From Bacteroidota bacterium (GTDB lineage: Bacteria > Bacteroidota > Bacteroidia > UBA7662 > CANHCV01), in the NCBI GenBank assembly GCA_947459245.1, contig CANHCV010000017.1:1-42166 (forward strand): a stretch of DNA of 42,166 bases. Reading direction: 5' to 3'. The position numbers and the translations under genes were made by a program. How positions within the stretch are numbered: position 1 is the stretch's first letter; the number at the start of each line of letters is the position of its first letter. A model generated the notes under the pieces. It ran no database searches, had not been told where the DNA came from, and worked only from the letters and a program-made list of their open reading frames with translations. Of this stretch, positions 33,217 to 42,040 are shown piece after piece.

Positions 33217-34868
33217 AATCAATAAGCAGCATCATTTTTTTCCTTTTTGCAGTTGTTTCCTTTGGGCAAACAGCCCCTGCCATCGACAAAGGTCTGGAAA
33301 AGAAAATCAAAAAGCACATCGTTTACTTGGCCTCAAAAAAATTAGAGGGTCGTGGAACGGGAACCAAAGGAAATGAATTGGCTGCTCAATACCTTGAAAA
33401 GGAATTCAAGAAGATTGGCTTAGCGGTTGAACGCCAACCGTTTGACGTTACCACTTCGGTTACCTCCATTCCTCAAAAGGTAGAAATCAACGGAGTAACT
33501 TTGCAGCACGGCATCGAATATTATCCCATCGAGCCTTCGGGCATGGGAACGGTTTCTGCCGCTACGATTTGGTTAAATTACGGCATTCAAGCGGCAGAAC
33601 ATCAGCATAATGATTTCTTAGATTCCTCCAAAATTGCTGGAAAAATTGCCGTAATGCGCTTAGGATCGCCCGGTGGTTGCAGCCCACACGGCAAATGGGG
33701 AAACTACCTCGAACCATCAGCCAAGGTAGCCCTAGCCAAAAAATACGGAGCCATTGGAGTGATCTTCCTGAAAGATTCCTGTGATGAGCCCACTTCAAAA
33801 TTTGAAACGAAATTGGTGAGCAACGAAATTCCTGTTCTTTACCTCTCCGAAACTGGTCGTAAAAAATGTGCTACCAATCCCGATTGGAACCAAGGAAAAG
33901 CCAGCATTTCCGTTTCGTTGAAAAGGAATACGGTTCCAACCCAAAACGTAGTAGCCTATTTGAACAACGATGCCCCATTTACCATTGTTCTTGGAGCTCA
34001 TTACGACCATTTGGGTCATGGTGAGATGGGTGGCTCTTTGTACCGCGGGCCTAAAGCCGTTCACTACGGAGCCGATGATAATGCATCGGGAACGGCTGCA
34101 TTGATTGAATTGGCTAGAATTTTAAAAAATAAGTCCGATTTTAAGAATTACAACGTGGTTTTTGCTGCATTCTCAGGAGAAGAATTGGGTTTATTGGGAT
34201 CAAAAAAATACGTAGAAACACCCATTTTTACCGATTTGAAGCAAGTTTCCTACATGATCAACATGGATATGATTGGAAGGCTGCAGGAAAATCAATTAAC
34301 CATCAGTGGGTTTGGAACGTCACCCCAATGGATGCAATGGGTAGATACCACCTTTGGAGGAATGAAATGCAAATTGGAATACTCGGGTGTTGGTCCCAGC
34401 GATCACACTTCGTTCTATTTGAGGGACATCCCCGTTTTGGCGTTTTTCACCAACGCGCATGCCGATTACCACAAACCCAGCGACGTTGCCGAGAAAATTA
34501 ACTATGCCGGAGAAGTTACGATCATTCAAAACATCCTCAATACCATTGAAAAAAGTCATGGAAAGGCTGGATTTACCAAAACAAAAGATCAATCCAACCG
34601 AACCGGTGCACGTTTTTCGGTTTCTTTGGGAATCATTCCCGATTATGCTTTCGAAGGTCCGGGTGTAAAAGTTGATGGGGTGAGCGATGGAAAAGCGGGA
34701 CAAAAAGCAGGAATTAAAACGGGAGATATTGTACTTTCTTTGGGAAAGCAGCCGATTACCGATATCCAGGTGTACATGAAAATTCTGTCTGGATTTAAAA
34801 AGGGAGATGCTGCCGAATTGGAAGTTCTTAGAGGGAAAGAAAACGTACGATTACAGGTTCAGTTCTGA
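33213..34868 (+). CDS. M28 family metallopeptidase with PA and PDZ domains
   Basis: An exported aminopeptidase-like zinc enzyme of 551 residues. A signal peptide (MKSISSIIFFLFAVVSFGQ) precedes a helical cap, a protease-associated domain (about 110-230) and the M28 core: GAHYDHLGHG with H263, HYGADDNASGTAAL with D288, AFSGEELGLLGS with E323 and E324, INMDMIGR with D352 and DYHKPSD with H420, all five zinc ligands and the general base. A PDZ domain ends the protein (about 475-551, DGVSDGKAGQKAGIKTGDIV). It follows the S41 protease by a 4-bp overlap, so both are probably made together for envelope proteolysis or peptide use. Confidence 0.93.
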   Translation: MKSISSIIFFLFAVVSFGQTAPAIDKGLEKKIKKHIVYLASKKLEGRGTGTKGNELAAQYLEKEFKKIGLAVERQPFDVTTSVTSIPQKVEINGVTLQHGIEYYPIEPSGMGTVSAATIWLNYGIQAAEHQHNDFLDSSKIAGKIAVMRLGSPGGCSPHGKWGNYLEPSAKVALAKKYGAIGVIFLKDSCDEPTSKFETKLVSNEIPVLYLSETGRKKCATNPDWNQGKASISVSLKRNTVPTQNVVAYLNNDAPFTIVLGAHYDHLGHGEMGGSLYRGPKAVHYGADDNASGTAALIELARILKNKSDFKNYNVVFAAFSGEELGLLGSKKYVETPIFTDLKQVSYMINMDMIGRLQENQLTISGFGTSPQWMQWVDTTFGGMKCKLEYSGVGPSDHTSFYLRDIPVLAFFTNAHADYHKPSDVAEKINYAGEVTIIQNILNTIEKSHGKAGFTKTKDQSNRTGARFSVSLGIIPDYAFEGPGVKVDGVSDGKAGQKAGIKTGDIVLSLGKQPITDIQVYMKILSGFKKGDAAELEVLRGKENVRLQVQF

Positions 34869-35521
34869 TGTTTTTTTTACTGGTAGAAACGAGTCATTCG
34901 AAGGGAAGCATCAGCTTGTTTGAGAATTCGGTTTGTTTGGAAGAAACGTTTTTGGATGGAGATTTCAAACATGCCGAACAGTTAGCTGTAGGAATTCAAG
35001 CGTTATTGGATCGGCATGAATTGGATGTGAAAAAGATCTCTGCCGTAGGCATTTCCGATGGCCCAGGTTCGTATACCGGCTTAAGGATTGGCGCTTCCTG
35101 GGCCAAGGGCTTCTGCCTCCCCACCTCTACCCCACTCATTGCCTGTTCCGAAACGAAAGCCTTGATGGCTGCAACCCAAGAATATCAAAATGTATTGTGC
35201 ATCATCGATGCTCGAAGAATGGAAGTTTTTGGAGAATGGATGGATGAACATGGAAACTCGAATGGAACCAAAGCGTGGATTTTAGACGAAGCCTTGGTTT
35301 CTGAGTGGCAACAGAAAAATCCAATTCTCGCCGGCGATGGAGTTGATAAATTGATGGAGCACTTCCCCTTTCCGTGGAAAGATTCTTTGATTCGCTTTGC
35401 CGATTCCCGGCATTTGTTTCCCGAATTTATTCAAAAGTGGGAGTTAAAACAGCATGAAAACATTTTCAGCTACGAGCCCAATTACGTAAAACCCGTTTTT
35501 TTGGTTCCCAGTAAAAAATAA
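34868..35521 (+). CDS. tsaB: tRNA t6A biosynthesis protein TsaB
   Basis: Partner of TsaD in making threonylcarbamoyl-adenosine at tRNA position 37. The 217-residue protein shows an ASKHA fold with LLVETSHSKGSISLF at the start and AVGISDGPGSYTGLRIGASWAKGFCL near 59-85, the hallmark of TsaB. The C-terminal half is divergent (FADSRHLFPEFIQ, YEPNYVKPVFLVP), the last being the usual Y-x-x-x-Y-V-K end. It starts with TGATG overlap on the M28 gene. Its stop lies in the terminator stem. Confidence 0.93.
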   Translation: MFFLLVETSHSKGSISLFENSVCLEETFLDGDFKHAEQLAVGIQALLDRHELDVKKISAVGISDGPGSYTGLRIGASWAKGFCLPTSTPLIACSETKALMAATQEYQNVLCIIDARRMEVFGEWMDEHGNSNGTKAWILDEALVSEWQQKNPILAGDGVDKLMEHFPFPWKDSLIRFADSRHLFPEFIQKWELKQHENIFSYEPNYVKPVFLVPSKK

Positions 35522-35552: not shown

Positions 35553-38500
35553 TTAACGTTGGATCACCCATTTCATCACCCTCACTTCGGAAGGGGTTGT
35601 AATTCTAAGGTGATACATTCCAACCGGAACATCGGAAACATTCAGAACTTCTTGGTTGGAAACCATCTTTTTCCTTTGAATAATTCTTCCCTGAAAATCA
35701 ACCAATTCAATCAACATTTCACGGTGTGTAACTGCAGTTGGAACTTCTAAAATAATTTGAGAATGAGCTGGATTGGGATAAGCCGAGAAGGAATTGGAAA
35801 GGTATCCGGCGCTCAACGGCCCGCTAACCGAAATGCAAGAGGTGTCGTTTCTTCGATTCGCGTCGTTGCCCAATTTTGTGAAGGCACACATTTGGTAAGT
35901 ACCGTTGTTCAAGTTGATTTGGCTATTGAATTGATAAACAACGGAATCTCCGGGAAGGATGCTTCCTGCAAACGACTCGGTAAGAATTGAATCGGGGGTT
36001 GGAGTGCCAGGGCCGGTTAAACGTGTTCGGAGGGTTACATCAAAGGTGTTAACCACCGTGGTTCCATAATTCTTCAGCAACAAACGCGGTGCTACTTGTG
36101 AAACAGTACTTCCATTTGAAGGAGTGAGAAAACGACTAACACCCACATCTAATATGGAATTATTGGCTCGTTTCAACATCAATTGAATATCATCCAAGGC
36201 CACTTCGCAATTGAATCCACTTCCTCGGGTAGAAATAAATCTAACCTGAATGCTTTGATTTCGGAAAGCCGACAAATCTACCATGGAATCGGCCCAAGGA
36301 TCAGAAGCCGACAGTTGTTGTTGGCCAGGAATTAAGAGTAAAGTGGTCCAAGTATTGGAAGAAATGGGTTTGGCTTGAACGGTGAGTTGGAAAATATTAG
36401 CACCATACATGTGGAACCAGAACGAAAGGCGTGCCGTATCCCATCCTGCTAAATTGATGCAAGGACTGGTAAAAAATGAGGTATCGCCCGCTGAACCGGA
36501 AATGGAATAGGTGTACAGGTATTTACCTTGGTTGGTTCCCGTGGTTTTATCTACACTTGGACCAGAGGTAGAAAATAAGGTGTTCCCGTTACCAATTTGC
36601 CAACCGAATCCATTGGTAGCTTGGCTGGTCCATCCTTTTTCAATTTGGATGGGCGCTAAACTGTTTTCAAAAGTAATGGAGTCGGATTGCGCCATCATGA
36701 AATTGTTCACGGTTGCAGTAATGGTATCGTTGGAACGTTGACCATCGTTGGAAAGGCCGGTAAAAAGTTCAAAGTTATAGGTTCCCGGTAATGCAATATT
36801 CACTGGAACAGAGAAGGTATACCGCAAAGAATCGCCTCGGTTTATGCTTGCACGAATGGTGTCGGTAACACGGGTACCCGATGGTAGTAATCGATAGCTG
36901 ACCGGGAAATTGGATTGAGGAGCAGAACCCAAATTCATGATGATAACACGAACGGAATCCAATCCCATGGAACAACTGTTTTGGGTGATGGGCGAGGTCA
37001 TGGCCAACATGGAAACATCGTTGGCTGGATTATCGAAAATGGAGAAATCATCGATTCCCATATCGCCTTGAATTCCCGGAGATTTCAACATGAAGAATCG
37101 GATTTTAGTAGCTGTATTGCTTCCTTTGTTGAAGTTCACCCGGCGGTATGCCCAAGGATCCGTTTCGGCGGTTTGTTGTTGGCCGCTTAAACTATCGATG
37201 GTTACCCAATTTCCTTGATCAAGAAATTGAACGTAACACGGTGCCATGGACACCCCGAAACGGTGGTACCAGAATCCGATGGAAGGATTTTGTAAGGTAG
37301 AAAGCGTAAAGCAAGGGGTTTCGATCATGGCAGTATCGCGGGTATTGCCGTAACTGGCTTCGGTATAAATGTATTTTCCGGCAGCAGTACCGAGGGTATG
37401 ATCAACGGTTGGTCCTGTATTGGAAGTACCTGTTGATCCGGAAAAGAGGTACCATCCCCAAATACCATTCCCGGTTGGAGTTGCTTTCCAACCTGCAGGC
37501 ATGGTACCGGTGGAAGAACCGAAGCCGGAAATTCCAGACTCGAAATCCATGGTGTAAGGGAAGGCATTCACGAAAGAGTTGGTCACCGAGAAACGAAGGG
37601 TATCATTTCCACGGATATTGTCGATGGAATCTTGGGTAAAGAAGGTGAAGAAATACGTTCCGTTGGCCGATAAATTGGCGCGGGTTGAAAATACTACGTG
37701 AAGGGTATCTCCGGGTTGGAGGGTATCGGTTACGGTTTGGCGAACGGTTGGATTCCCGACCAAGGTGTAGCCTACTTGGAAGTTGGTTGCGGGGCCGGTG
37801 CCTTGGTTTTTCACAACCATGGAAATAACTTCATTGGAGGTAAACTGATTGCAATTTGTACCGCTTGCTGGAGTTAGAACTGCAAATGCTTCCAAATCGA
37901 TGGAAGGCGAATTGTACAATTCGATGTTGTCAATCGCCATGAATTGGTTGAAAGAAGTTCCCACTTTTTGAGCGCGGAATCTCAATCGAACCGAACCACC
38001 TGCGAAAGCATTCAAATTCACAATTCTTCTCAACCAAGGATCATTTTTCGCTGTTTGTTGCTGGCCTTTTACCGAATCAAGGATGATCCATTGGTTATTG
38101 GAAAAGGCTTCCAAGTACAAATTACCCATTCCTACTCCAAACATGTGGGTCCAATAACTGAATCGAGGTGCGGTTAGCGTTTGTAAATTAAAGCAAGGGC
38201 CTAAGAAAATAGCATCGGGGCCAGCGCCAAATCCGTAGGTCATTAAAAAGCCACCTTGCCCGGCTACACCTGTAGTTTTGTCGACACCCGGACCTGAGGA
38301 ATTGGTGTAATTGTTATTGTAATTGAACCATCTCCAAACCGTGTTATTATCGGGCAGGACGAACCAATCTTGAACGGATGAGCGTTGCGTTGGGCCGGAA
38401 CTCGTATTGGGGAAATTTTGAGAATAGGGATAATTAGAAACAATGGTATTTTGATAAATGCGAGAGCTTGAATCGTTGAAATTGAAATTATCACCTGCAA

Positions 38501-41075
38501 CTTGGGAAGAAACCAAAACGGAATGTGCCCCCGGAGCCGACAAATTAGCTCTTAAGGATGCAAAGGTGTAGGAATAGGAAGTGGATGGATTGAACGCTTG
38601 ATTTAAGGTATCTTTTCCAACCAAATTTCCATCCACAAACAAGGAGAGAATTACGGAATTGATGGTGGTTGTTCCCTGATTTCTGAGGGTCATTTTCACC
38701 GTTTCTGCTGAAGAATAGCCACAACTACCCGTACCAATAAATGGAGTATCGATGGAAAGAACGGCAAAGTCGGTTGGTGAAACAGAAAATTCGTAAGCCC
38801 CAATATCGGGCGTTGATGCACTTCTAGCCATTCCGGTAATATCCAATCCAACCGTTGTGGGAGTACCCAAATTATCGAACAACCGATTGGAAGGAACGGG
38901 TAAACTCAAACTCACCAATTGGGGATTGATGGTTACCGAGCCTATATCTTGGGCGTTCACGTTTTGCCAAGAAGCCATGGTTGTAAAATTGGTCGTCCCA
39001 ATTCGAGCGATTTGATTGGAACCCGTACCGCAGTAAAAATTATTGTTGCTTCCAGAATATACCATGCTGTAATTGGTATCGGAAAAATTGATGGCTCGGT
39101 AGGTATTTGCCATGGTAATTCCAGGTCGAGTTTGAACTACAATGTTATTATTGATCAATTCCAAGCCATTCAAAGAAGTTTGAGTAAGGTACGTAGCGTT
39201 GAATGGACGATAAATGTAAAATGCCCCCACGTTATCGTTGAAAGTGGATGAGCTACCGGATAATGCATAGATGGTATTGTGAACAAAGCGAGCATAGTCG
39301 GCAACGGTATCAAAAGTGCTGTTCGCATCTTGGCGTGGATTCAAATAGACTACTGCAGGATTGCTTCCTGTGTTGAAATTTCCCCCAATGATGTTGTTTT
39401 CGAAAACGTTGGGTTGGTTTGCATTTCCATCAAAACTATTGAGGTAAAGGGCGGTTTGTCCTTGCTCCCCTCCTATTCGATTGTTGCTAAAATTAATCTC
39501 ACGGCAATAATTGAAATAAACTCCATAACTACTGGTGGTTAATCCAGTGAAATTATCGATAAAGGAATTATTCAAAAATTGCGAATTGCGCATGTAATTC
39601 AAGTAAGCTCCATAATAACTGGTATTCCGAATGGTATTCCCCTCTATTCTATTCAATGAATCGCGGTTGGAGATACTACTTCCAAACCAATACAAGCCAT
39701 AATATCCATTTTCAATGACATTGTTCAACAATGTAATTTCGGAGGAACGCTCAATAGATACTGCACGAGCATTGAAGTTATTGGTATTGAAAACCGACTT
39801 GATGTTGCAGCCTTCAATGGTAATGGAATCTGAATTTACAATGTACAACGGGTGCTCGGTATTGGAGAAGGTTGTACCTGTTCGATGCAGGGTTAGATTT
39901 TTAAGGAAAACATTGGAGGCATTTTCAATTCGAAAAACGGAACCTGTAAGATTGGAAATGGTAACATCACTAGCTATTCCGGAACCCGATTCGAACGTGA
40001 TGGAAAAGGGACCAAGGCCTCGAATCGGGCCACGAAGGGTATAATTCCCCGTATAAGTACCAGGATCGATAGAAAAGGTAACATTCCCGGAAATTCCACT
40101 GCATCCTAGAGCGGTAAATACATCATTCAAATTAGCAAAATCGGTATTTCCGGTACCAACGGTATACGTGCCTGCAGGCAAACTCAAACAAATGGGAATG
40201 CGAATGGTGTCGTTACCTGGGCTAATATCGGGCATACTTCCATTGGCATTGGTGGCCCAAACTTTTAGAATATGAAAACCAGCATTGGGAAGAGTTAAAT
40301 TCGTGGAAAACGTAAAGGTGTCTAAGCGTCCTGTAGTAAGAGAACCTGACCAAGAATGGGTTTGAATGCTTCCATTATCCAATTGGTATCCCAAATTAGC
40401 AGAAGTTAGGGTATTGGTTCCTCCGGAACGAAAAACCAGCGAAACGGGAACCGAAGCTCCACCAACAAATGGAGTAACGGGAGAAAGAAGACCTGCTACA
40501 CCAACATCGGTTCCTGTAGCAGAATGGTAACTTACTCCTCCACAGAATTGACGTGGGGAATTCAAAGGATTGGGAATACTTCCTCCATAACCGGTATTAG
40601 GACCAGAGGTAATTTTCACATCTGCATTAACAAACGTATCCGGCAAGGAAGCATTGTAGGTAGTATAAACCGAATTCCCAGGTGAACCTGCCACCACTCC
40701 CACGTAAAATCCGTACTCTGCTCCGGCTGGAATGATTAATCCGGCCGTAATGGGGATGCCACTTTGTTGAAGATTTCCGGTTAATCCCGAATTTAAAATT
40801 TGAGCAGAGCTCGTTTGCAATAGAGTCCAGTTTGGAGAAGAAACATTCGGGGGACCACTCACCCGATTGGTTGAATACCAAACTTGAACATTGGTATTTG
40901 TACCCACCGTACCGTAAAACGGATTCCAAACCGTATCAAGAATAATGCTGACATTGGATTTAAGGTTAAAAGTAATTCCAGCAGCACCGTTTCCTCCGGC
41001 TGAATTGGTGAATAATCGTTGGGCATTAACCCCAATGGTTAAAAAAGCAAAAATCAAGAAAGTAAGATTTTTCAT
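35553..41075 (-). CDS. Giant secreted multidomain protein with T9SS type A sorting domain
   Basis: A 1840-residue exported protein. Signal peptide (MKNLTFLIFAFLTIGVNAQ); an N-terminal beta-rich domain to about 190; a CARDB-like domain (about 195-300); a right-handed beta-helix (about 380-645) full of N-N-x-I and N-x-F turns (LLNNVIENGYYGLYW, RIEGNTIRNTSYYGAYLN); then three repeats, each a CARDB-like domain followed by a jelly-roll (MAM or choice-of-anchor-J-like) domain, the latter at about 878-1052, 1166-1347 and 1460-1630, with shared marks SGPGVDKTTG, DSVKGQQQTAKNDPW and AIDNIELYN; a further CARDB-like domain; and a T9SS domain from about 1763 (YPNPAHSQIILEV to the end, MKWVIQR). It is probably a surface adhesin or glycan-binding protein; no catalytic residues are seen. 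Stand-alone gene. Confidence 0.9.
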   Translation of the reverse strand: MKNLTFLIFAFLTIGVNAQRLFTNSAGGNGAAGITFNLKSNVSIILDTVWNPFYGTVGTNTNVQVWYSTNRVSGPPNVSSPNWTLLQTSSAQILNSGLTGNLQQSGIPITAGLIIPAGAEYGFYVGVVAGSPGNSVYTTYNASLPDTFVNADVKITSGPNTGYGGSIPNPLNSPRQFCGGVSYHSATGTDVGVAGLLSPVTPFVGGASVPVSLVFRSGGTNTLTSANLGYQLDNGSIQTHSWSGSLTTGRLDTFTFSTNLTLPNAGFHILKVWATNANGSMPDISPGNDTIRIPICLSLPAGTYTVGTGNTDFANLNDVFTALGCSGISGNVTFSIDPGTYTGNYTLRGPIRGLGPFSITFESGSGIASDVTISNLTGSVFRIENASNVFLKNLTLHRTGTTFSNTEHPLYIVNSDSITIEGCNIKSVFNTNNFNARAVSIERSSEITLLNNVIENGYYGLYWFGSSISNRDSLNRIEGNTIRNTSYYGAYLNYMRNSQFLNNSFIDNFTGLTTSSYGVYFNYCREINFSNNRIGGEQGQTALYLNSFDGNANQPNVFENNIIGGNFNTGSNPAVVYLNPRQDANSTFDTVADYARFVHNTIYALSGSSSTFNDNVGAFYIYRPFNATYLTQTSLNGLELINNNIVVQTRPGITMANTYRAINFSDTNYSMVYSGSNNNFYCGTGSNQIARIGTTNFTTMASWQNVNAQDIGSVTINPQLVSLSLPVPSNRLFDNLGTPTTVGLDITGMARSASTPDIGAYEFSVSPTDFAVLSIDTPFIGTGSCGYSSAETVKMTLRNQGTTTINSVILSLFVDGNLVGKDTLNQAFNPSTSYSYTFASLRANLSAPGAHSVLVSSQVAGDNFNFNDSSSRIYQNTIVSNYPYSQNFPNTSSGPTQRSSVQDWFVLPDNNTVWRWFNYNNNYTNSSGPGVDKTTGVAGQGGFLMTYGFGAGPDAIFLGPCFNLQTLTAPRFSYWTHMFGVGMGNLYLEAFSNNQWIILDSVKGQQQTAKNDPWLRRIVNLNAFAGGSVRLRFRAQKVGTSFNQFMAIDNIELYNSPSIDLEAFAVLTPASGTNCNQFTSNEVISMVVKNQGTGPATNFQVGYTLVGNPTVRQTVTDTLQPGDTLHVVFSTRANLSANGTYFFTFFTQDSIDNIRGNDTLRFSVTNSFVNAFPYTMDFESGISGFGSSTGTMPAGWKATPTGNGIWGWYLFSGSTGTSNTGPTVDHTLGTAAGKYIYTEASYGNTRDTAMIETPCFTLSTLQNPSIGFWYHRFGVSMAPCYVQFLDQGNWVTIDSLSGQQQTAETDPWAYRRVNFNKGSNTATKIRFFMLKSPGIQGDMGIDDFSIFDNPANDVSMLAMTSPITQNSCSMGLDSVRVIIMNLGSAPQSNFPVSYRLLPSGTRVTDTIRASINRGDSLRYTFSVPVNIALPGTYNFELFTGLSNDGQRSNDTITATVNNFMMAQSDSITFENSLAPIQIEKGWTSQATNGFGWQIGNGNTLFSTSGPSVDKTTGTNQGKYLYTYSISGSAGDTSFFTSPCINLAGWDTARLSFWFHMYGANIFQLTVQAKPISSNTWTTLLLIPGQQQLSASDPWADSMVDLSAFRNQSIQVRFISTRGSGFNCEVALDDIQLMLKRANNSILDVGVSRFLTPSNGSTVSQVAPRLLLKNYGTTVVNTFDVTLRTRLTGPGTPTPDSILTESFAGSILPGDSVVYQFNSQINLNNGTYQMCAFTKLGNDANRRNDTSCISVSGPLSAGYLSNSFSAYPNPAHSQIILEVPTAVTHREMLIELVDFQGRIIQRKKMVSNQEVLNVSDVPVGMYHLRITTPSEVRVMKWVIQR

Positions 41076-41720: not shown

Positions 41721-41760
41721 AAAAAAAAGAAGGCCAACTTTCGTAGGCCTTCTTTTTTTT
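41721..41760. terminator. Strong terminator between the tRNA-like repeats and the GIY-YIG gene
   Basis: A perfect 15-bp stem, left arm 41721-41735 (AAAAAAAAGAAGGCC), right arm 41746-41760, loop AACTTTCGTA. Both ends carry A/T runs, so it can act in either direction. It would end a minus-strand transcript coming from the tandem tRNA-like units just before the GIY-YIG ATG. Confidence 0.9.
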
Positions 41761-41761
41761 T

Positions 41762-41895
41762 CGTAGCGAGGACGAGAGTTGAACTCGTGTCCGCCAGCCG
41801 GCGGATAGGAATCCGACCAACTATTTTTTTCGTAGCGAGGACGAGAGTTGAACTCGTGTCCGCCAGCCGGCGGATAAGAATCCGACCAACTATTT
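41762..41895 (-). repeat. Tandem 69-bp unit resembling a tRNA 3' half (two copies)
   Basis: Copies begin at 41762 and 41831 (period 69) and differ at one base within the shared 65 bp. Read on the minus strand each unit has CGGAT-TCCT-ATCCG, then TCCGCC-GGCT-GGCGGA, then ACGAG-TTCAACT-CTCGT, a perfect T-arm with the 7-nt TTC-type loop, followed by CCTCGCTACGA like the acceptor 3' strand, and a T run. A tRNA with a long variable arm would have the last two parts in this order. The 5' half (D-arm, acceptor 5' strand) is not found, so these are not functional tRNA genes. The one difference lies in the TCCT/TCTT loop. Confidence 0.8.
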
Positions 41896-42040
41896 CAACA
41901 ACTGTCCCCTCAGAAACTCGCGACCTCTAAAACTCTTCAATTCCTTTTCCCGTTTCATTGCCATGGCTTTATCGGCAAATTGCTCCTCATAGAAACAACG
42001 CCAGGGCCTACAGCGACTTGTAAATCCACGTCCGAAATCG
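41890..42040 (-). pseudogene. Truncated second GIY-YIG gene copy
   Basis: The minus-strand frame reads DFGRGFTSRCRPWRCFYEEQ, then FADKAMAMKREKELKSFRGR and EFLRGQLLK before a TAG. It is about 80 percent identical to the C-terminal part of the neighbouring GIY-YIG protein. The N-terminal third is missing: similarity between the two copies stops sharply at 42040, where unrelated sequence begins. Its stop codon is the first part of the downstream tRNA-like unit, so gene and repeat are directly joined. Confidence 0.85.

Follow-up and report, generated by a model that had tools for sequence, protein, structure and literature searches.

The window, i.e. the whole stretch of 42,166 nucleotides analysed here, carries at its right end two direct repeats of 69 bp (41752-41820 and 41821-41889, 97% identical), which a first-pass annotation of the bare sequence had described as near-identical folded units resembling tRNA 3' halves and joined to GIY-YIG nuclease genes. 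Both the repetition and the folding hold: compared with 200 dinucleotide shuffles each, one copy beats 200/200 and the other 199/200 (z about -2.9). The unit is composed of a 63-bp core and a T6 spacer (Table 1), and its tRNA sense is the minus strand, on which the core reads TAGTTGG TCGGATTCCTA TCCGCCGGCTGGCGGA CACGAGTTCAACTCTCGTCCTCGCTACGA. The T run noted after the units is this spacer, which reads as A on the sense strand and is no terminator; a terminator-like hairpin is situated between the units and the left GIY-YIG gene, in the position that terminators occupy in other loci. The right nuclease copy does end at a TAG within the unit, which is the first codon of the unit 2 core, although this copy is a 5'-truncated fragment. 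The only difference between the two units lies in a loop and had been read as a hint of selection on structure, for which two copies give no evidence.

Table 1. Features found at the right end of the window.
Feature	Position	Strand	Evidence or remark
GIY-YIG nuclease gene copy 1, 88 aa	41451..41717	-	ORF; PF01541, E 3.4e-9
Terminator-like hairpin, with the tRNA-derived units on one side and the start of GIY-YIG copy 1 on the other	41721..41760	-	Inverted repeat, 18-nt arms, 94% complementary, with T run
Unit 1, tRNA-Met remnant with a 5' part (D-loop/anticodon), a palindrome, the T-arm and the 3' strand of the acceptor	41761..41823	-	
Palindrome TCCGCC AGCC GGCGGA, unit 1	41790..41805		
T6 spacer separating the units	41824..41829		
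Unit 2, tRNA-Met remnant	41830..41892	-	Sense strand opens with TAG, the stop codon of GIY-YIG copy 2
Palindrome, unit 2	41859..41874		
GIY-YIG copy 2, 3' part, cut off at 42040	41893..42040	-	93% identity with copy 1 across 148 nt
Unrelated sequence breaking into GIY-YIG copy 2 at the contig end	42041..42166	+	Encodes ..LENQLELLKLFLPELLVEHFE

The left ORF encodes a genuine GIY-YIG domain (37.3 bits against a PF01541 cut-off of 22.6). Proteins of the family to which it belongs are about 85 aa long, consist of little more than the catalytic domain and show no module for DNA binding; the closest solved sequences to their profile are UPF0213 (1ywl, 1zg2) and SLX1 chains, and neither NCBIfam nor PHROGs contains a family that scores above its curated cut-off for the nuclease. 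In the 105 rows of the family the second Y and the catalytic R are present in 105/105, the YIG glycine in 103/105 and the catalytic E in 100/105, and with a median dN/dS of 0.094 over 125 pairs the protein is under purifying selection. In copy 1 of the window the invariant YIG glycine has become Asp and a family-invariant Lys has become Arg, which together with the truncation of the second copy suggests that the element is decaying here. The sequence that interrupts copy 2 is probably the end of an insertion sequence; its product LENQLELLKLFLPELLVEHFE presumably resembles a transposase N-terminus, and a Pfam search of the short fragment gave no match.

The annotation had also proposed that a donor tRNA gene be sought. 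ARAGORN found no tRNA in the window, the donor being on another contig. This 2.35-Mb genome has five copies of the 63-bp core. Two are those of the window; the other three lie at the beginning of contig C7, where an intact elongator tRNA-Met(CAT) gene with the same T-arm, acceptor and CGA stands directly before them. Because their T-arm and acceptor are identical to those of a real tRNA-Met gene, the units are tRNA-derived and no chance mimic. They retain the D-loop sequence AGTTGG and the start of the anticodon stem (TCGGATTC) and lack the remaining D-arm and the 5' acceptor strand, and they have the palindrome where a tRNA would complete its anticodon arm with the 3' half and form the variable loop. 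Judged by their sequence, the units would be copies of a tRNA-Met gene's 3' part that have been displaced and disabled. Contig C7 begins within a GIY-YIG 5' end, and 85 bp there match the window exactly. In the sister species G001 (L019) the end of the gene found at 34868-35521 of the window, a three-unit array, tRNA-Met and the gene downstream on C7 are contiguous. By this synteny C7 and the window end are most likely neighbours, and the order is therefore most likely GIY-YIG copy 1, two units, the interrupted GIY-YIG copy 2, three units and tRNA-Met. In G001 the nuclease gene has been lost except for its first bases, leaving tandem units without a nuclease gene. The window also carries a minus-strand ORF of 1840 aa (35553-41075) that is missing from the syntenic place in G001.

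The association of nuclease and unit is not restricted to this genome. In the class, 45 places in 30/395 genomes have the palindrome followed by a T-arm, as opposed to a single match in the control, and in other classes of the phylum 7/9 loci with this pattern show the order tRNA-Met, nuclease, palindrome remnant. Since this search was conditioned on the palindrome, a survey from the protein side was also made, in which a profile of 12 GIY-YIG proteins compared with 84,980 species genomes gave 320 relatives, the best 80 of which were fetched. All but two of these best 80 are titled as Bacteroidota taxa, the exceptions being "bacterium" and Rhizobium. The record titled Rhizobium sp. (L101) has a Flavobacterium-type tRNA-fMet with the element and is likely a mislabelled, contaminated or mis-binned assembly. 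An intact tRNA-Met lies no more than 100 bp upstream of the start of the first GIY-YIG gene in 59 of the best 80, and no more than 400 bp upstream in a further 8; of the remaining 13, 5 start at a contig or locus edge. Since a genome has only a few tRNA-Met genes, chance linkage would give essentially none. The order in the element is an intact tRNA (as predicted by ARAGORN), a terminator-like hairpin, present in nearly all loci, the GIY-YIG gene, the remnant after its stop codon, and the native terminator of the tRNA. Most of the 59 tRNA-Met-linked relatives have a palindrome-capped remnant, and in 54/76 loci the 75 nt next to the stop contain a perfect, GC-rich inverted repeat, compared with 13 for a stretch 330 nt further on, itself partly inside tandem copies, and 3 after shuffling. 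The suggestion that nuclease gene and tRNA-like tail form one composite element is thus borne out: the unit is not found only here, and its link with GIY-YIG genes recurs among relatives. Amplification can go far, as in G125 (L226, G125:C9:905200-911200), where ten nearly identical tandem GIY-YIG copies of 457 bp lie behind tRNA-Met, and in G180:C34 (L227), which has about eight more diverged copies of about 364 bp. The window locus is probably an ageing, amplified copy of this element. On an IMG/VR contig (3300026551_000083; L228/L230) a GIY-YIG gene lies between two tRNA 3' ends with encoded CCA and the palindrome TCCGCCTCAGGCGGA; the encoded CCA and the high G+C suggest a host outside Bacteroidota, and this type of element may therefore be more widespread.

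Occupied, empty and scarred alleles can be compared directly at the elongator tRNA-Met locus of Flavobacterium. Among 150 genomes the 30 nearest matches contain neither nuclease nor remnant, and many of these empty loci share one type of native terminator behind the tRNA. Three loci are occupied (L107, L122 and L111); in L107 and L122 this native terminator comes after the remnant, and a different terminator and the nuclease gene stand between tRNA and remnant. Occupied L122 and empty L185 match at 560/576 positions upstream through the tRNA and at 569/631 downstream from inside the tRNA 3' end, and they differ by a clean insertion of 373 bp which repeats the last 27 nt of the tRNA and has the GIY-YIG gene as its sole ORF; alignments of occupied and empty alleles place the insertion point no more precisely than within the 27-nt repeat. 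The element is also lost, as in G033, where a decayed remnant stands alone, so that this locus was rejected as an empty site and is considered a scar. It is possible that L186, L187 and L197, which have an element-like terminator and an apparent decayed nuclease start and no remnant, are scars as well. Of the two natures proposed for the system in the annotation, mobile or RNA-based, the former agrees with this allelic behaviour.

The palindrome is the most regular part of the remnant. Among 65 distinct perfect cases, a count that took only palindromes with outer TCCG/CGGA and perfect arms (a few, in L090, L095, L107 and L122, are imperfect), it directly follows TCATA in 49/65 and is itself followed by C in 64/65. 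Its arms are TCCGCC/GGCGGA in 57/65, and in the other 8 every change is compensated (TCCGTC/GACGGA, TCCGTT/AACGGA, TCCGCT/AGCGGA, TCCGGC/GCCGGA), while the loop varies freely. T-arms that are broken or filled by a palindrome are common among remnants. The useful structural signal is the palindrome, with arms that covary across species, rather than the tRNA fold. The segment TCATAACCC is common to 46/46 distinct associated tRNAs, initiator and elongator alike, and is followed by nn-AGGTC in nearly all of them. It is this segment, shared by both kinds of tRNA-Met, that is destroyed in the remnant, and it is mainly for that reason that we place the presumed target of the nuclease there. In the window's genome the TCCGCC palindrome is found in the units only, which rules out that such palindromes are scattered everywhere in this host, and in G403 it is likewise confined to the locus of the element. 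Other genomes have from 1 to 31, some of them within terminator loops. In G076 (L212, L224) TCCGCC..GGCGGA lies inside the loops of other hairpins, e.g. terminator stems, which suggests that in some Bacteroidota genomes the loops of hairpins are favoured places for such short palindromes.

Related nucleases are present at other tRNAs. Genes of a second GIY-YIG group, found in 35/119 class genomes, adjoin tRNA-Arg(CCT, TCT, CCG), Ser, Ala, Leu, Asn, Glu and Asp in the loci that were read, and some have no adjacent tRNA (e.g. L155, L165, L168). Remnants at non-Met tRNAs have palindromes of other sequence, situated in anticodon, D- or T-loops. Some loci (L170, L166, L154, L167) are mirror images, in which a 5' remnant including the upstream flank precedes the nuclease and the intact tRNA. 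In L152 (G054) an intact tRNA-Arg(TCT) gene supplies the end of the nuclease frame, which enters its 5' half and terminates at a D-loop TAG. In a tree of 97 proteins and 84 columns, with most forks unresolved, the Met-associated proteins group together and apart from the rest (SH-aLRT 89), joined by two long-branched Ala-associated rows; at this low resolution initiator hosts are intermixed with elongator hosts, with 33 target changes compared with 42 in shuffles.

The tRNA-Met remnants are probably the product of a minimal mobile element, consisting of a GIY-YIG gene alone, whose insertion at tRNA genes spares the tRNA. The nuclease would cut an empty tRNA-Met gene near the anticodon/variable-loop sequence TCATAACCCnnAGGTC, common to initiator and elongator genes, and repair of the break from an occupied copy would bring in the nuclease gene together with a fresh tRNA 3' end. 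The tRNA would thereby stay whole, and its old 3' end would be left downstream as the remnant. Replacement of the target core by the palindrome would make the remnant both uncleavable and useless as tRNA, and unequal recombination between direct repeats may have given rise to the tandem units of the window and to the multi-copy arrays. Against this scheme stand the small size of the protein, its kinship with UPF0213 and the structure-specific SLX1, the additional palindromes in D- and T-loops at non-Met tRNAs, and the phage and plasmid records searched, which gave no relative that would point to a vehicle. The clearest difficulty is that the intact tRNA in occupied loci, like unoccupied tRNA-Met genes of the same genome, retains the presumed target, so that something must prevent self-cutting. 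This could be control of expression, a recognition site long enough to include part of the native 3' flank, or a nuclease that recognises structure instead of sequence.

The last of these leads to the main rival explanation, that the nuclease is structure-specific and SLX1-like, binding or cutting hairpins or cruciforms such as tRNA arms, with the palindrome as substrate, and that the element and dispersed palindromes are comparable to REP/transposase systems. The relationship to UPF0213 and SLX1 as best solved relatives, the covarying palindrome arms (outer TCCG/CGGA in 65/65, for which the cases were selected, and all inner changes compensated), the similar palindromes in loops of other hairpins in G076 and the use of several different tRNAs are all in favor of it. 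Confinement of the palindrome to this one locus in the window's genome and in G403 makes a dispersed family unneeded, however, and the persistence of Met-associated proteins at CAT tRNAs argues for sequence specificity, so we regard this explanation as unlikely. A REP/RAYT system proper, with a Y1 (TnpA-REP) transposase beside its palindromes, does not agree with the occupied insertion, in which the GIY-YIG gene is alone.

A toxin acting on RNA would have no need to be inserted beside its target gene, with a duplicate of the 3' end and a precise empty counterpart, and this is one reason why it is quite improbable that the nuclease acts on tRNA-Met itself with the remnant transcript as decoy or antidote, even though the remnant has a T-arm and acceptor strand without the anticodon arm and the element adjoins the tRNA it would target. 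The damaged T-arms of many remnants also speak against such a role, as does the lack of any Rfam family for the units at the curated cut-off: the best match, tmRNA, reached 20.4 bits against a gathering score of 47, which does not identify the units as a tmRNA or another known structured RNA, and a permissive search turned up nothing beyond sub-threshold matches scattered across the repeats. The units also have no D-arm, 5' acceptor strand or anticodon arm, and the RNA-based part of the original suggestion is thus unsupported. The direct repeat of a tRNA 3' end next to an intact upstream tRNA is classical attachment-site anatomy, and could be attributed to the relic of a larger tyrosine-recombinase island of which attachment sites and a passenger GIY-YIG gene remain; with a complete insertion of only 373 bp and no integrase gene in it, remnants that reach 5' of the anticodon and nearly always have a palindrome, and mirror-image elements that restore the 5' end instead, we hold this to be very improbable. 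That slippage duplicates tRNA 3' ends and GIY-YIG genes are trapped there by chance is the least credible explanation. The nuclease-free tandem units of G001 would agree with it, whereas the linkage to tRNA-Met among the best 80 relatives and the purifying selection on the protein already refute it for the family.

The preferred reading, a mobile GIY-YIG element that leaves its tRNA host whole, has its closest parallel in the mORFs of fungal mitochondria (Allomyces, Glomus, Rhizopus), in which an endonuclease gene, LAGLIDADG or, in atp9, GIY-YIG, is inserted in conserved genes (atp6, atp9, cox2, nad3) and carries a replacement 3' end, so that the host gene stays functional and its native 3' end is displaced downstream (PMC3630166). 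The tRNA element likewise brings a replacement gene end and displaces the native one, but its targets are tRNA genes in bacterial chromosomes rather than mitochondrial protein genes, and unlike mORFs it encodes a nuclease of only some 85 aa, caps its remnant with a palindrome and also exists in a 5'-restoring mirror form. With homing endonuclease genes in general it shares occupied and empty alleles at one cognate site and, by prediction, a preserved host tRNA. The Seg family of T4-like phages consists of free-standing GIY-YIG homing endonuclease genes which lie outside introns and spread by homing. The stand-alone genes are a common trait, but Seg genes are phage genes, and phage and plasmid records searched with an approximate, consensus-like query gave no relative of the tRNA element; we know of no duplicated target fragment accompanying Seg genes. 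To our knowledge UPF0213/COG2827 (YhbQ-type) proteins and SLX1, closest in solved sequence, have no association with tRNA genes either. Integrative elements at tRNA 3' ends also have a duplicated 3' end and an intact tRNA, while here there is no recombinase. A group I intron does not fit, the tRNA being continuous upstream of the element and no Rfam intron matching. A search of the open-access literature, with subscription papers and preprints outside its scope, turned up no account of a GIY-YIG gene that inserts at tRNA genes of bacteria, which is weak evidence of novelty; the tRNA-inserting family seems to be undescribed in bacteria.

On balance we lean towards a phylum-wide, perhaps wider, unnamed class of minimal selfish elements in which a GIY-YIG nuclease of 80-90 aa colonises tRNA genes of many isoacceptors, replaces their 3' or 5' end and thereby keeps the tRNA functional, leaves a palindrome-capped remnant and may be repeated in tandem up to about ten copies. 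Such elements would explain many of the small "GIY-YIG nuclease family proteins" in Bacteroidota and the tRNA-like fragments adjacent to them, and would extend the strategy of mitochondrial mobile ORFs to bacterial chromosomes and tRNA genes. The palindrome which caps nearly every remnant, with arms that covary, is a concrete puzzle. The family would also offer a tiny nuclease whose comparatively predicted target, an essential tRNA gene, is directly testable.
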